Notes under the pieces: generated by a model
Told to the model about the DNA's origin: nothing
Seen by the model: only the letters and a program-made list of their open reading frames with translations
Databases searched by the model: none
IMG/VR virus record: IMGVR_UViG_3300046318_000391
Location: 1 to 44,160 of that record
Length of the DNA: 44,160 nt
Reading direction: 5' to 3' (one strand)
From: a virus
Made by a program: the position numbers and the translations under genes
Shown: in pieces, positions 497-38,917 of the stretch
How the letters are laid out: the number at the start of each line of letters is the position of its first letter
Numbering within the stretch: the stretch's first letter is position 1

Positions 497-3400
497 ATGG
501 CCAACTACCTGCCCCTCCCTGACGGTTCACGTTTACGTATTCCAGAAGGCATGTCCGAAAACGAAGCGATGCAGAAAGCACGCATTAAGTTTCCTGACCT
601 GTTCCCCAAACAAGGTGGTTTGAAAGGGGCGTTCGGTAAAGGGTTGGAGTCGACACTCTCCAGCATGCAAACAGGCTTGGGTGCCATCATGGACCCGGAA
701 GAAGCCGCTCAAGCAGGCCGACAACGTGGCCAGGACATCAACAGTCGCTACGCCGAAGAAGTCAGCTTCGACAAAGTCCGTGAAGCCTACGACAAGAACG
801 GCATCCTTTCCGCCGCGCGCGAAGCGCTTGGCCAAGTCCCCAAAGCAATCGCTGAACAAGCACCCAACATGGCCGCCACGATTGGTGGTGCGCGCCTTGG
901 CGCCATGGCCGGTTCACTTGCTGGCCCAGCAGGTACAGTTGTTGGTGGTGTGGCCGGTGCGTTGGCTCCTTCTCTCTTGCAGCAGTTCGGTGGCAACATT
1001 GAGCGTCAACAGGCCGAAGGCGCACCGATTGATCGCCGTGCCGCCGCTGCGGCCGCAGTCCCCCAAGCCGCGCTAGATGCCGCTGGTACCTTTATTCCTT
1101 TGGGTGGCAAGTTGGTGAGTAAGCTGACAGGCATCCCAATCGCTGGCCTGGCCAACAAGGGTGCAGCCAAGCTGGCCGAAGAATCTCTCCTTAAGACGTT
1201 GGCAAAAGGTACGGCCGTCGGCGCCTTGGCCGAAGTCCCCACTGAGATTGCCCAGCAGATGCTCGAGCGCGCGCAAGCCGGCCTGTCCTTGACCAGCCCA
1301 GACGCTCTGAAAGAATACGGTGAGACAGCGTACCAAGTTGGCCTGTTGGCACCCATCGGTGCAGTCGGCCGCTTCTCAAAGAAGGGCGAAGCCCAGCAGC
1401 AACTGGCTGCCGAGCAAGACGCCAAAGACCTCGCCGCTGCGGCAGCCGAGGAAGAAACAAACAAGGAGCCATTGCAGATCGGCTACACCCCGCAGATCGC
1501 AGGCCCCAACGCTGAGCCTCGCTTTGAGATCGCACCTCAGCCAACGCCAGATGTCATGGACCTCATGAACAAGCATGCTGCGTTGGTCCCTCAGATGGAT
1601 GCGCTGCAAGAGCAGATCAAGGAAGCCGGCGTTGCCGGTGACACAGCCAAGCTCGCTGAGTTGATGCCTCAGTTCGACAAGATTCAGACCGACATGCAGT
1701 TGCTCACGGCCACCGTCGAGCAGTTGGGCGGCACAACAAAGCCTTCCGCCGAGCTGGAGACAGAGGCACAGGCGCAGCTTGCCCAAGCAAACAAACAAGT
1801 GGCCGCCGCACAGAAAGCATTGGCCAAAGCAGCCGATCTCGGTGAGTGGGGGCAGATTCCAAAACTCAGCGCCAAGCTGGATGCAGCACGCCAGAACGTG
1901 ACGGCCATCCAAGAGAAGACCCAGCAGCAGTTGCAGATGCGCCAGGTTGCAGAGACGCCAAAGGGTGAGACACCCGGTATGTTCGGCGCTCAAGAACAAG
2001 TGGACGAAACAAAGGCCGCAGAAGTGTTGAAGGGCGAAGCCGAGCGCGGTCTCTATGGTCCAGAAAGCAAAGCCGAGTCGGCCAAGCAAGCGTTTGCCGA
2101 GACAGAAGTTGGCCCACGTGGCCAGATCGAAGCTGCGCCTGTGGCTCAGAAGGTCAAGAAAGACAAGGACACCCTTGCGCTGTTTGGTAAAGAGAACCTC
2201 GTCAAGACCACGTTGGCCAACCGTGACTTTGAGAACGGCCCCTACGTGCCTCGTGATTTGGACGAGCAAGGCAAGCGTCGCGTCGAAGACGAGCGCGTGC
2301 TGCGTTTGTTGGAAGACCGTTTTGGTTTGGGTGGCGAAGACAAGATCACCGAAGGCCCGTTCAAAGGTGAGACCACGCGCAGCGTGCAGTCCACCCGCAT
2401 GTACGAGCACCCCATGTTCAAGCCGACCATGGAGAAGATTCAGCAGCACAAAGACCGCGTTGAGAAGAAGCAGCGCAACGCCAAGCAGTCATGGTTGGAC
2501 GAGCTGTATGAGCAAGCCAACATCTACAACTACATCCACGAGCTGCAAGGCGGCAACAAGAAGACCGGCCCAGCCGAGTCCCCCATCGCTGCTGTCGCTG
2601 ACCAACTGGTGAACTTGGCGCCTCCTGCACAGGTTGTTGCCGGCCTCGAAAAGAAGACACCGCGCAACTTGCAGCGCACCAAAGACGCAGCACTGGCCAA
2701 GTACGAAAAGGTGTTGGCCAAGATCGAGATGGAGCGCAACGCCATTGAGAAGCTGTACAAGAACTTGAACAGCGCTGTCGTGAAAATTACCCCACTTGAG
2801 AAAGTGGAGTCCGTGCGTCAGAAGAAAAAGGACCTGTTGGATGCGCAGCCAAAGCCTGTCGTGTCGAAGGCTGCCAAAGAAGTCAAGCGCATCAACGAAG
2901 GCAACGTGGCCAAAGAAGCGTCTGAGACGCAGACCATGCGTGACTTGGCCTATATGCTCGGCATGGATACAGACGTGTACGCTCGCGCCAAGAAGCAGCT
3001 GGCACAGCGCGGCAAGAAGATTGCCGACCAACACACCAAGGACTCAAACGAGTACCGCGAGTTCATCGACTTGGCTCGCCCAGACCTGCGCAACATTGCC
3101 GAGCGTGAGGGTGCCAAGACCGAGGAGTACAAAGAAGCGTTGGCCGAGCAGACTGAAACGCTGAAGAAGTCGTACCAGTCCGCGGGCAAGCAGCAACTCA
3201 AGTCCAAGCGTGACAAGTCACCTGTCATGCGCAAGCAGTCCGCTGCACCTGAGCGCTTTGTTACTGGCTCCCCAGAGAGTAAGGCACGCACCTCCGAGAA
3301 GCAAGCCAAGTACATGGAGTCGCTGAATGACGCCTACGAAGCCATCCAGTCTGAGAACGACGGCACCTACGGTGAAGGCAACTGGCGCACAGCGCCGCGC

Positions 3401-36004: not shown

Positions 36005-36297
36005 GATGTGTTTTCCTATAAGGTTATGTATCAAGCAAGGCCAATCCCTACTCGATGCCTCTATTGTATGACAACACGTTTTCAAAAGGGGTTGACACCA
36101 CTGGTTTTGCCCCATTCCGAACCCCACCTACCCCCCACATCCCCTTTTTGACGTCCCCACCAGCTTGGCGCATGAACACTGTTCCACATCGACTTTCAGC
36201 ATTTTTGTCAAACCCTGTCCATTTATAGCCAAAAGTATTACACCCAAAATTTTATAAAAATTCCCTGGGGTTTTTGTCAAACGGCTATACTGAGGGC
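36005..36297. promoter_or_regulatory. Divergent control region with repeated TTGTCAAA sites
   Basis: This gene-free stretch separates leftward and rightward programmes. TTTTTGTCAAAC occurs at 36202-36213 and 36271-36282. ACGTGTTGTCA (minus strand, about 36078-36068) repeats exactly the sequence at the -35 of the 29.6-kb promoter. TATACT at 36286-36291 is a possible rightward -10 box, but no good -35 lies 16-18 bp before it. A C-rich tract (36115-36150) has no visible function. Confidence 0.45.
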
Positions 36298-36657
36298 GTT
36301 GATGAATCCAAATCCCAACCCTTGCGGAGAGACTCTGAGATGGATACAGAGCATCAACACCAACAAGTAAGAAGGCTGGCTGCGCAACCTAGCGCAAGGA
36401 CCTCGCTGGTTTGCGGTGGGGGTGCTGTTCGAATCGGCGCCCCGGGTCTGTAGGGACGCCAGCCTTCTTTCTTGTTGGTGAGCGAGGCCACCTGGTGTAA
36501 CAGGGAACCGCTGGGATGGACTAGCTTCGTAAGCCTGAACCCACCCCGTCACCAACAACCTGCATAAGCCGAAGGCTCGCGTCCTAATCTAACGACGCTG
36601 AGGTGCTGCCTGCCAAGAAACAGAAAGGCAAAAAAGAGCCCCACGCAAGGTGGGGCT
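36298..36657 (+). ncRNA. Highly structured RNA candidate with tRNA-like fold
   Basis: Consecutive helices: 36298-36304/36352-36358 (7 bp) enclosing CTCTG/CAGAG (36333-36351); then 36358-36380/36458-36480, 22 of 23 bases paired. Inside that long stem are TGCGC/GCGCA (36381-36396, D-arm-like), a weaker hairpin at 36398-36412, and a 9-bp stem capped by the T-loop sequence TTCGAAT (36419-36443), exactly as a tRNA T arm. Further hairpins lie at 36513-36547 and GCGTC/GACGC (about 36578-36596), and a terminator follows. No frame here looks coding. Strand is assumed from the following rightward genes. It could instead serve as a DNA site for packaging. Confidence 0.55.
36631..36657. terminator. Bidirectional terminator-like hairpin
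   Basis: AGCCCCAC (36637-36644) and GTGGGGCT (36650-36657) form a perfect 8-bp stem with loop GCAAG. On the minus strand it is followed by CTTTTTT, a full intrinsic terminator for antisense transcripts. On the plus strand the tail GAATGGGTTTT is weaker. Confidence 0.7.
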
Positions 36658-36685
36658 GAATGGGTTTTACCCCAGAGGAGAAGCA

Positions 36686-36745
36686 ATGCAGGCAACTGCT
36701 TGCCGCACTACCGGAAATGAGTGTACACTCCAGCCATCGAGGTGA
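36686..36745 (+). CDS. Possible leader peptide upstream of the terminase genes
   Basis: A 19-aa frame starts at ATG 36686 behind a strong AGAGGAGAAGCA site and ends at TGA 36743-36745, six nt before the AGGAG of the next gene. The peptide contains no clear motif. Alternatively the site belongs to an in-frame start of the terminase gene not recognised here. Confidence 0.4.
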   Translation: MQATACRTTGNECTLQPSR

Positions 36746-36761
36746 CAACAGGAGCCTTCGC

Positions 36762-37379
36762 TTGTTTGAAGATTTGGTGCAATTTAATCCGGAACCCACA
36801 CCGTCCGGAAATTTCAAGCCCATCGACGAGATGGGGCCAGCTACCGTGCTTGACGCACAGGTGGCTACAGCTGATTGGCTGGAAGAGATCGGCGCGCCTC
36901 CCGATGAGGACGCCCACGCAGAGGCCACACAGAAGTTGGCCCGGGCCGCGTTCACGGCCATGATTACTGACTCGGACGAGGGCACACAGCGTAAAGCGCT
37001 CACAACCCTGAAGACACCCGAGGCGGTACGACACATCACCGGCATGCTGGCAGCCTACGACTGGGAGTTCGTGGAGCAGGCCAAAGAGCTCCGCGGCTAC
37101 GCCGTGGCGCAAATCTTCGAAGAGACCAAACACCCCGACGCCAAGATTCGACTCAAAGCACTTGAGATGCTGGGCAAGGTCACGGAAGTGGCACTGTTCA
37201 CGGAACGCGTCGAGGTCAAGAAGGCTGAGATGAGCGACCACGAGCTGGAAGCCAAGATCAAAGAGAAGCTCAACAAGTTCATGAAGGTCGTCGACGTGGT
37301 CGACGTAAGGGACGTGTCAGAAGACACCCCGGCCGAAGCCCCCACCATCCTGCCAACTCCCGAAACGGACGACGAGTGA
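36762..37379 (+). CDS. terS: Terminase small subunit (putative)
   Basis: 205 aa from TTG 36762, which has CAGGAG 8 nt before it; the frame stays open to ATG 36660 (239 aa), but those extra codons overlap the terminator hairpin and leader frame. Central helical repeats (MLAAYDWEFVEQAKELRGYA, KALEMLGKVTEVALFTERV) and the position directly before the large subunit (GTGA overlap) support the call. It should recognise the packaging site, probably close by. The acidic, Pro-rich tail is likely disordered. Confidence 0.7.
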   Translation: MFEDLVQFNPEPTPSGNFKPIDEMGPATVLDAQVATADWLEEIGAPPDEDAHAEATQKLARAAFTAMITDSDEGTQRKALTTLKTPEAVRHITGMLAAYDWEFVEQAKELRGYAVAQIFEETKHPDAKIRLKALEMLGKVTEVALFTERVEVKKAEMSDHELEAKIKEKLNKFMKVVDVVDVRDVSEDTPAEAPTILPTPETDDE

Positions 37380-38917
37380 ACCTGGACGCCCTGACCACGC
37401 TGAGCAAGGATGAGCTGATCGCTCTCCAAAAGGCGTTGCCGACAATGTCGCTCCAAGACAAGATGGAGCTGTTCGACATGTTGGAGGTGCGCGAGAAGCG
37501 CGCCAGCCTAGCGGCCGCCCAAGGGAACATGCTCGGGTTTGCCAACGCGGTCTACCCGGGATTCAAGGTCGGGCCACACCACCGGAAGCTGGCCAAGATT
37601 TTCCAGGACGTGATCGACGGCAAGAAGAAGCGCGTCATCATCAACATCGCGCCGCGTATGGGTAAGTCGGAATTTTCATCCTACCTGTTCCCAGCGTACT
37701 TCCTAGGTAATAACCCTAACAAGAAGATCATCATGGGCACGCACACCGCGGGCCTGTCCGAAGACTTCGGCCGGCGCATCCGAAATTTGCTCGACTCAGA
37801 GGAGTACCGTGAAGTCTTCCCGAATACGCAGGTGGCGGCTGACCAAAAGGCTGCTGGAAAATGGTCCACCTCTGCTGGTGGCCAGTATTACGCTGCTGGT
37901 GTGGGTGGCGCTCTTGCGGGTCGCGGCGCAGATTTATTCGTAATTGACGACCCACACTCCGAACAGGACGTGAAAACAAACTCGCGCCTGGCGTTCGACA
38001 CGGCGTGGTCGTGGTTCCAGACTGGCCCCTTGCAGCGTTTGATGCCGGGCGGCGCGATCATAGTCATCATGACGCGGTGGAGTCTGCTGGACCTGACCGG
38101 CCGGCTGATCGACTACCAGATGAAGAACCCGAACGCGATTCCATGGGAGATCGTGGAGCTGCCGGCGATTCTGAACGAGGACACCGAGAACGAGAAATCG
38201 CTGTGGCCGGAGCAGTGGCCGCTGGCGTCATTGAAGTCGACGAAGGCTTCGCTGGACCCACAGTACTGGAACGCCCAGTACATGCAGCAGCCCACATCGG
38301 ACTCGGCCGCGATCGTGTCGAGAAAGAGCTGGCGCATCTGGGAGAGCGACACGCCGCCGAACTGCGACTACGTCATCCAGTCATGGGACACGGCGTTCGA
38401 AGCCAAGACCCGGTCGGACTATTCTGCGTGCACCACGTGGGGCGTCTTCTACAACGAGGAAGAGAACCACATGCCCCAGCTCATCTTGCTGGACGCGTTC
38501 AAGGACCGCATGGAGTTCCCGGAGCTCAAGGCCGTGGCGCTGAAACACTACCGCGAGTGGGAGCCAGATGCGTTCGTGATCGAGAAGAAAGCCGCCGGCG
38601 CGCCCCTCATCCAAGAGTTGCGCAACATGGGCATCTTCGTCCAAGAATTTACACCGAGCCGCGGAAACGATAAGATCGTGCGTATGAACGCAGTGGCCGA
38701 CTTGTTTCACTCAGGTAAAGTCTGGGCACCCGACACACGCTGGGCGCGCGAGGTCATCGAAGAAGTTGCGTCGTTTCCGAACGGCGAGCACGATGACTAC
38801 GTGGACACGACCAGCCAGGCTCTGCTGCGTTTCAGGCAAGGTGGTTTCATTCCGTTGGACTCCGACGAGCGTGACGAACCGACATTCTTCAAACGCAAAT
38901 CGCACGCGTATTACTAG
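37376..38917 (+). CDS. terL: Terminase large subunit
   Basis: 513 aa from GTG 37376. ATPase: Walker A APRMGKS (92-98), Walker B LFVIDD (187-192). Nuclease: D in QSWDTAF (about 338), the FVIEKKAAG block and HDDYVD near the C-terminus, the RNase H-like metal-binding pattern. The enzyme packages DNA into the prohead and cuts it. Full length for the family. It overlaps the small-subunit stop by 4 nt and is followed 14 nt later by the portal gene. Confidence 0.95.
   Translation: MNLDALTTLSKDELIALQKALPTMSLQDKMELFDMLEVREKRASLAAAQGNMLGFANAVYPGFKVGPHHRKLAKIFQDVIDGKKKRVIINIAPRMGKSEFSSYLFPAYFLGNNPNKKIIMGTHTAGLSEDFGRRIRNLLDSEEYREVFPNTQVAADQKAAGKWSTSAGGQYYAAGVGGALAGRGADLFVIDDPHSEQDVKTNSRLAFDTAWSWFQTGPLQRLMPGGAIIVIMTRWSLLDLTGRLIDYQMKNPNAIPWEIVELPAILNEDTENEKSLWPEQWPLASLKSTKASLDPQYWNAQYMQQPTSDSAAIVSRKSWRIWESDTPPNCDYVIQSWDTAFEAKTRSDYSACTTWGVFYNEEENHMPQLILLDAFKDRMEFPELKAVALKHYREWEPDAFVIEKKAAGAPLIQELRNMGIFVQEFTPSRGNDKIVRMNAVADLFHSGKVWAPDTRWAREVIEEVASFPNGEHDDYVDTTSQALLRFRQGGFIPLDSDERDEPTFFKRKSHAYY

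Follow-up and report, generated by a model that had tools for sequence, protein, structure and literature searches.

A family of structured phage RNAs with tRNA-like hairpins, encoded upstream of the terminase genes

A 97-nt RNA core encoded upstream of the terminase genes of a virus record almost certainly belongs, as judged from sequence comparisons, to an RNA family that is new to description and absent from Rfam 15. The structure of the family is supported by covariance, and its members occur at the start of late operons and in tRNA islands, regions where GOLLD and ROOL also occur. The novelty lies in the RNA family itself; its mechanism may prove to be of a known type.

Results

Genomic context of the element

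The window, i.e. the whole stretch of DNA that was analysed, is a virus record of 44160 bases. The element lies in a divergent gap between two gene blocks, just upstream of terS as the earlier note on this DNA had placed it, see Table 1. The minus-strand block contains primase/helicase, helicase and polymerase genes, while the plus-strand block contains terS, terL and portal genes. Searches of Pfam and PHROG give no match for the window terS; its homologues in two related loci (L098 and L105) are the genes that precede terL. The window TerL is 51.7% identical to that of Pelagibacter phage HTVC027P; this phage, phage 023Pt_psg01 and phage DSL-LC04 are the nearest (about 52%).

Table 1. Positions of the RNA modules, their parts and the neighbouring features in the window.
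Feature	Position	Strand	Remarks
Candidate -10 (TATACT) of the leader RNA promoter	36286..36291	+	preceded by TTTTTGTCAAAC (36271-36282)
Module A, stem-loop	36295..36361	+	closed by GGCGTTGATG / CATCAACACC; inverted repeat I5 and fold
Module B, full 23-bp basal stem	36358..36480	+	22/23 paired, one T.T mismatch
Conserved core of the family	36371..36467	+	97 nt; found at 106.3 bits (E=1.2e-25) by model R1, from which the window was left out
P1, 5' strand	36371..36380	+	pairs with 36458-36467
P2 hairpin, TGCGC-AACCTA-GCGCA	36381..36396	+	loop AACCTA invariant
P5, 5' strand GGAC	36398..36401	+	pairs with GTCT 36446-36449; encloses P3 and P4; 4 bp
P3, D-arm-like hairpin, TCGC-TGGTTT-GCGG	36403..36416	+	loop GG invariant
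P4, T-arm-like hairpin	36419..36443	+	9 bp, loop TTCGAAT
Junction strand GTAGGGA	36450..36456	+	conserved
Module C, structured stretch	36472..36558	+	closed by TTGTTGGTGA / TCACCAACAA; inverted repeat I3 and folds
Module D, second conserved RNA family	36560..36632	+	unlisted; hairpins and H-type pseudoknot
Module D, hairpin	36567-36577	+	
Module D, hairpin	36579-36598	+	loop CTAATCTAAC
Module D, H-type pseudoknot	GGT(36602-36604)/GCC(36612-36614) and GCCT(36608-36611)/AGGC(36626-36629)	+	
Module D, A-rich strand AAGAAACAGAA	36615-36625	+	invariant
A-tract and GC hairpin before terS	36637..36657	+	also in empty-site relatives
terS	36660..37379	+	239 aa; first gene 3' of the element; called by position
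terL	37376..38917	+	513 aa; PF17289, PF03237

A tRNA-like fold closed by a long stem

The earlier note had described a tRNA-like fold closed by a 23-bp stem, and its account of the structure holds. An inverted-repeat search finds the two arms (36358-36380 and 36458-36480), which are 77 nt apart and can pair at 22 of their 23 positions, and the three hairpins that it had placed in the apex are all present: the D-arm-like P2, the weaker central P3, and P4, in which the T-arm loop TTCGAAT is closed by a G-C pair. As it had also said, 14 nt (36444-36457) separate the T-arm-like hairpin from the 3' arm and no CCA is encoded. The note missed that this element, module B, belongs to a longer cassette in which a further conserved RNA, module D, is also present.

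A chance inverted repeat is ruled out by three results. The RNA fold of 36340-36500 reaches -79.8 kcal/mol (z=-5.3), which none of 200 shuffles equals; when the region is compared by blast with the genome that contains it, the arm-to-arm self-match is returned with E=5.9e-5; and a covariance model built from relatives only detects the core (Table 1), which shows that the structured fold is real. The earlier note had made its reading depend on covarying stems in related phages; we looked for them, and the stems covary.

Members of the family

Pattern searches find the core RNA in at least 14 further IMG/VR records. The first search, with a 17-base pattern from the P2 hairpin, gave four true homologues (L165, L167, L169 and L170) and four chance hits, and a second search with a T-arm and junction pattern, omitting the P2 hairpin, brought the total of homologues to 14. 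Only the positions fixed in these patterns are ascertained, the remaining positions are free of ascertainment. Among the rejected hits, L166, L168, L171 and L172 are chance or coding matches, and L084-L096, from the first T-arm pattern, are not homologues (L094 alone was inspected, and its flanks do not match). None of the named phages searched carries the family, a pattern search of named phages and plasmids gave nothing convincing, and for the cores of L182 and L174 Rfam, searched at high sensitivity, returned chance matches alone.

In a structural alignment of the ten distinct cores, all metagenomic, the five helices are paired in 298 of 310 cells. Alignments shuffled without keeping relatedness have 243±4.7 paired cells (maximum 260, n=2000). 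The helix cells, which are not independent of each other, contain 50 G·U against 5 A·C, and because of this excess of G·U the RNA is assigned to the plus strand. Unpaired positions are 82-91% identical, compared with 55-75% in the stems. The covariance model R1, built from seven relatives with the window left out, gives a single match in the window, the core. It also detects L182 (94.6 bits) and L175 (48.7 bits), neither of which is in the model.

The core RNA is located upstream of terL on the same strand, at 0.9-4.5 kb, in 12 of 15 records (about seven non-redundant), with L175 at the far end of this range; a search for TerL in the other three records found none. The terminases of the family records differ: they are of the window type, of the L165 type, or accompanied by a Sf6-type TerS in L167, L174 and L176, whose TerL are about 30% identical to that of the window. 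In L165, the core RNA lies in the leader directly before a small ORF, which is taken for terS, and module E, also found in relatives of the window, follows. In L182, a tRNA-Thr and a terminator-like hairpin come 3' of the core RNA, and the next sizeable frame is on the other strand. This arrangement argues for action in trans.

Anatomy of the core

The basal stem P1 has at least 10 bp across the family and 23 in the window, and is paired in 93 of 100 cells over the ten sequences, with covariation. P2 is TGCGC-AACCTA-GCGCA or a close variant throughout, and its loop AACCUA is invariant even in the records fetched by a pattern that did not contain it. P5 occurs in six combinations, all paired (GGAC/GTCT, GGAG/CTCT, GGCG/CGCT, GCAG/CTGT, GCCG/CGGT and GGGC/GCCT), and its outer pair is G·U in every one. 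The P4 stem, of about 9 bp across the family, also covaries, and its UUCRANU loop is present in all relatives, as TTCGAAT, TTCGACT or TTCAAAT. The conserved junction strand includes TAGGGA, which was part of one search pattern; L165, L167, L169 and L170 were recovered without it.

Taken together, P5, P3 and P4 form a three-way junction with the make-up of the acceptor/D/T junction of a tRNA minus the anticodon arm. In tRNA, G18G19 and the T-loop form the elbow. P3 and P4 may form an elbow in the same way, and CCTA in the P2 loop (36388-36391) is predicted to pair with TAGG of the junction (36451-36454) as a pseudoknot. We infer both contacts, since the bases concerned do not vary and thus show no covariation.

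The other modules of the cassette

Homologues of modules A and C were sought in the fetched loci and none was found, so both are singletons so far. The 5' side of module C overlaps the outer stem of module B, and therefore both cannot be fully formed. In addition, the 3' arm side of that stem (36454-36481) can alternatively pair with 36549-36558 (10/10) and with 36571-36584 (13/14), in modules C and D. From the folding models a conformational switch is possible; the alternative is about 9.5 kcal/mol less stable than the long-stem fold (-124 versus -133.5 kcal/mol).

Module D is a unit of about 74 nt with more than 40 true loci found by patterns, all viral. In several records (loci among L099-L164) it lies exactly between two tRNA genes. 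In the alignment of 41 distinct sequences (A1), 91.6% of the cells are paired, versus 61% in shuffles and at most 44% in slid versions, and its P2 and H-type pseudoknot are backed by covariation. The model R2, also built without the window, finds the module at 84.5 bits (E=9e-22). One pattern searched against 84,980 cellular genomes gave six chance hits, and an Rfam search for a ribozyme gave nothing at module D. Rejected as chance hits of the module D pattern were L120-L125, L127, L130, L131, L143, L146, L153-L156 and L159. On each of two virus contigs (L112 and L129), module D lies within a group of about 30 tRNA genes that spans 9-12 kb. Among the records searched, the window alone contains both the core RNA and module D.

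Further recurring modules are seen in relatives, namely E, F, G, H, a tRNA-Met-like M and a tRNA-like T. Module E (L102:990-1069, L113:1442-1521, L105:177-257 and L165:9778-9856) has a terminator-like hairpin, GCCCCGTGGGGTTTTT, whose arms have an alternative pairing partner in the module's own 3' end; from this pairing it looks like a terminator/antiterminator switch. Several tRNA-like genes have the T-loop AGCGTTA or ATCGTTA (L097, L099, L105, L107 and L117, with similar ones in L112 and L114), i.e. A at position 54 and T at 58 versus the usual T54/A58, and several of them read as tRNA-Met(CAT). One stem on the reverse strand of L106, about 110-180 from the start, holds a T-arm TGGGTTCGAGTCCCA and, 3' of it, a D-arm-like stretch GGGCTGGAGTGGTCAGC, an arrangement that resembles a circularly permuted tRNA.

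The cassette site in related phages

For the comparison of the site, 80 loci with a related TerL were fetched. A few long distances are regex artefacts and were excluded from the counts. In two relatives with about 98% identical TerL (L004 and L006), the whole stretch 36282-36651 is missing, and almost nothing separates the AT-rich upstream part from the A-tract and hairpin that precede terS. The site is also empty in the majority of relatives whose TerL is 76-89% identical, and most of the measurable sites are empty; filled ones are those of the window, L005, L008, L105, L042, L021-L023, L079 and L045. The site of L005 has a promoter-like start and a 3' end in common with the window, while its middle is different. 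In L107, other RNA modules are followed by module D, then seven tRNA genes (2457-3227), at the same site as module B, and terS. A recurring module, GATTGCGACGAT...ATCGTGGTGCAG, is found at L045:3010-3059, upstream of terS at the same site, and at L099:1280-1316, at the head of an array.

Since in relatives the site either has no insert or contains tRNAs or other RNA modules, it is a cassette slot. The presence of tRNAs and other modules in neighbouring slots fits an exchangeable accessory locus. Having empty, tRNA-filled and RNA-filled versions of one site in close relatives opens the function to a genetic test.

The borders of the slot are partly shared. The start of the filled sites, TA(T/C)ACTG followed by (G)TGTTGG, is found once in the window and again in L005, L042, L099 and L105; upstream of the candidate -10 in the window a good -35 was looked for and none was found. 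Two copies of the palindrome TTTGTC...GACAAA, each reading TTTTTGTCAAAC, lie a short way upstream of the cassette site in the window, at 36271-36282 and 36202-36213, and the palindrome also occurs at the empty sites of L038, L020 and L013. It is perhaps an operator of divergent early and late promoters. At the other border, the A-tract and GC hairpin (36631-36657 in the window, same place in relatives) are retained even where the cassette is missing; they form a terminator on the minus strand only, not on the plus strand.

Possible function

We suggest, with somewhat less than even confidence, that the RNA is an accessory cassette acting in trans, a mimic of the tRNA elbow that would bind a host tRNA-handling factor. 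In this proposal the RNA (36358-36480) would be transcribed with the late leader upstream of terS. It would then be processed out of the late transcript and be stable, which is part of the weakest step. Late in infection and outside translation, it would occupy its partner as an elbow mimic; candidate partners are a defence tRNase or an enzyme of tRNA processing, modification or decay. A stable, non-decoding mimic acting in trans is favoured by the accessory distribution of the RNA, by the tRNAs found alongside, by its elbow motifs and by its setting in L182. The kind of partner is suggested by phage tRNAs that defeat tRNA-cleaving defences and by the precedent of YrlA (PMC11555353, PMC10264068, PMC8394870). 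Of the roles listed in the earlier note, a host-enzyme decoy probably fits best. More broadly, and rather doubtfully, the late operon of some phages may begin with cassettes of small structured RNAs, among them several mimics of tRNA; these cassettes would be RNA-based tools of counter-defence or host take-over, exchanged between phages whose terminases differ widely, and the core RNA and module D would be two of several families of this kind.

The main rival is a cis role in late expression, kept in play by the consistent location near terL. Here the RNA would act as the leader of the late operon, either modifying the polymerase, blocking termination or regulating the translation of terS, in the manner of an attenuator or of antitermination leaders such as HK022 put. 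In both the window and L165 a promoter-like sequence precedes the RNA and terS follows it; this placement, the same-strand location upstream of terL in 12 of 15 records and the competition of the long stem with downstream pairings are all in line with such a leader. We nevertheless regard it as unlikely, as the RNA of L182 precedes a tRNA and a terminator-like hairpin with the next sizeable frame on the opposite strand, the distance to terL is 4.5 kb in L175, and the operon works in phages that have a 98% identical TerL but lack the RNA. The control RNA for late genes that the earlier note had listed is a possible role in the window and in L165; in L182 it is not. The proximity to terL could also mean that the role, rather than being generally accessory, lies in the late operon or in packaging. 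A quite improbable alternative is a phage Y RNA of the YrlA kind, in which the basal stem would bind one protein and the head PNPase or another nuclease, redirecting RNA decay. The plan of YrlA (PMC8394870) matches P1 and P5/P3/P4 in general, but the P2 hairpin and the junction strand are extra, and neither an RF02553 match at the core RNA nor a TROVE/Rsr gene was found in the window or relatives' records.

The earlier note had considered a packaging RNA or a terminase recognition site, and the comparison of sites speaks against both: L004 and L006 lack the whole element beside a TerL that is about 98% identical, therefore it is neither a needed packaging RNA nor the cut site (cos or pac) of this terminase. 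A part in the terminase motor analogous to the phi29 pRNA is very unlikely even though the RNA adjoins terminase genes in several terminase lineages, given also the empty sites in most relatives at 76-89% TerL identity and the lack of an Rfam pRNA match. That the inverted repeat next to terS forms a DNA site (cos, pac or operator) instead of an RNA is scarcely credible, with a one-strand G·U bias of 50 to 5, conservation in loops and not in stems, and near-identical terminases without the element. A functionless, decayed tRNA or remnant of a tRNA array would account for the canonical T-arm sequence and for the tRNAs in the slot of relatives (L107). It is largely refuted by covariation, as phages whose terminases differ widely share the junction bases and have covarying stems, and the layout is unlike that of a tRNA, which makes it highly improbable.

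Comparison with known RNA classes

The earlier note had concluded that the element is not an ordinary tRNA and had recognised no named RNA class in it. This agrees with ARAGORN and Rfam 15 (RF00005 for tRNA), which recognise neither a tRNA nor a tmRNA in the element and rule out both; Rfam 15 has no match at gathering, and with E up to 10 just weak terminator-like and chance matches. The likeness to tRNA consists of the UUCRANU T-arm, a GG-bearing hairpin loop, an end-joining stem and a genomic slot shared with tRNA genes in relatives; the T-loop UUCRANY with a closing G-C pair is present in all members. However, the core RNA has the extra P2 hairpin, the predicted pseudoknot and a long basal stem. 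An anticodon arm with a 7-nt loop is absent, as the interval from P2 to P4 holds just the 4-bp P3 with its GG loop of 6-7 nt. Nor is the T-arm adjacent to an acceptor strand with a 3' CCA in the window, and relatives share this layout. A circularly permuted tRNA was considered because of the T-arm-first halves in L106, and was rejected as the window RNA has no G18G19 D-arm beside an acceptor strand.

YrlA is a bacterial Y RNA of 90-150 nt in which a large stem joins the ends and the head resembles the D, T and acceptor arms of tRNA; it mimics tRNA and interacts with PNPase and with enzymes that modify tRNA (PMC8394870). The core RNA has a similar size (~100-120 nt), a long terminal stem, a D/T/acceptor-like head and no anticodon arm, but it differs in its junction and in P2 with its junction strand. 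Membership is ruled out by the Rfam model RF02553, which has no match at the core RNA in the window and eight relatives' records, and by the absence of Rsr/TROVE (PF05731) from the phage records, namely the window and eight others. Elsewhere in the records RF02553 has weak, sub-threshold matches, and such matches also turn up in 13 of 14 control genomes.

The phi29 pRNA is likewise a small structured RNA encoded by a phage, and the window RNA lies near packaging genes, but the Rfam model of pRNA has no match and the window RNA is missing in phages with the same terminase. GOLLD and ROOL are structured phage RNAs of unknown function, often near tRNA islands (PMC12286853). The window RNA shares this description but is smaller, built of separate short modules, without a sign of cage assembly or a match to their Rfam models. 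Finally, phage tRNAs (T5, T7 and others) counter tRNA-cleaving defences; like the window RNA they are accessory RNA cassettes, and they are expressed in infection (PMC11555353, PMC10264068). Those are functional tRNAs, while the window RNA cannot decode. If the RNA is indeed an elbow mimic, phages would counter tRNA-centred host systems with non-decoding RNAs besides spare tRNAs.
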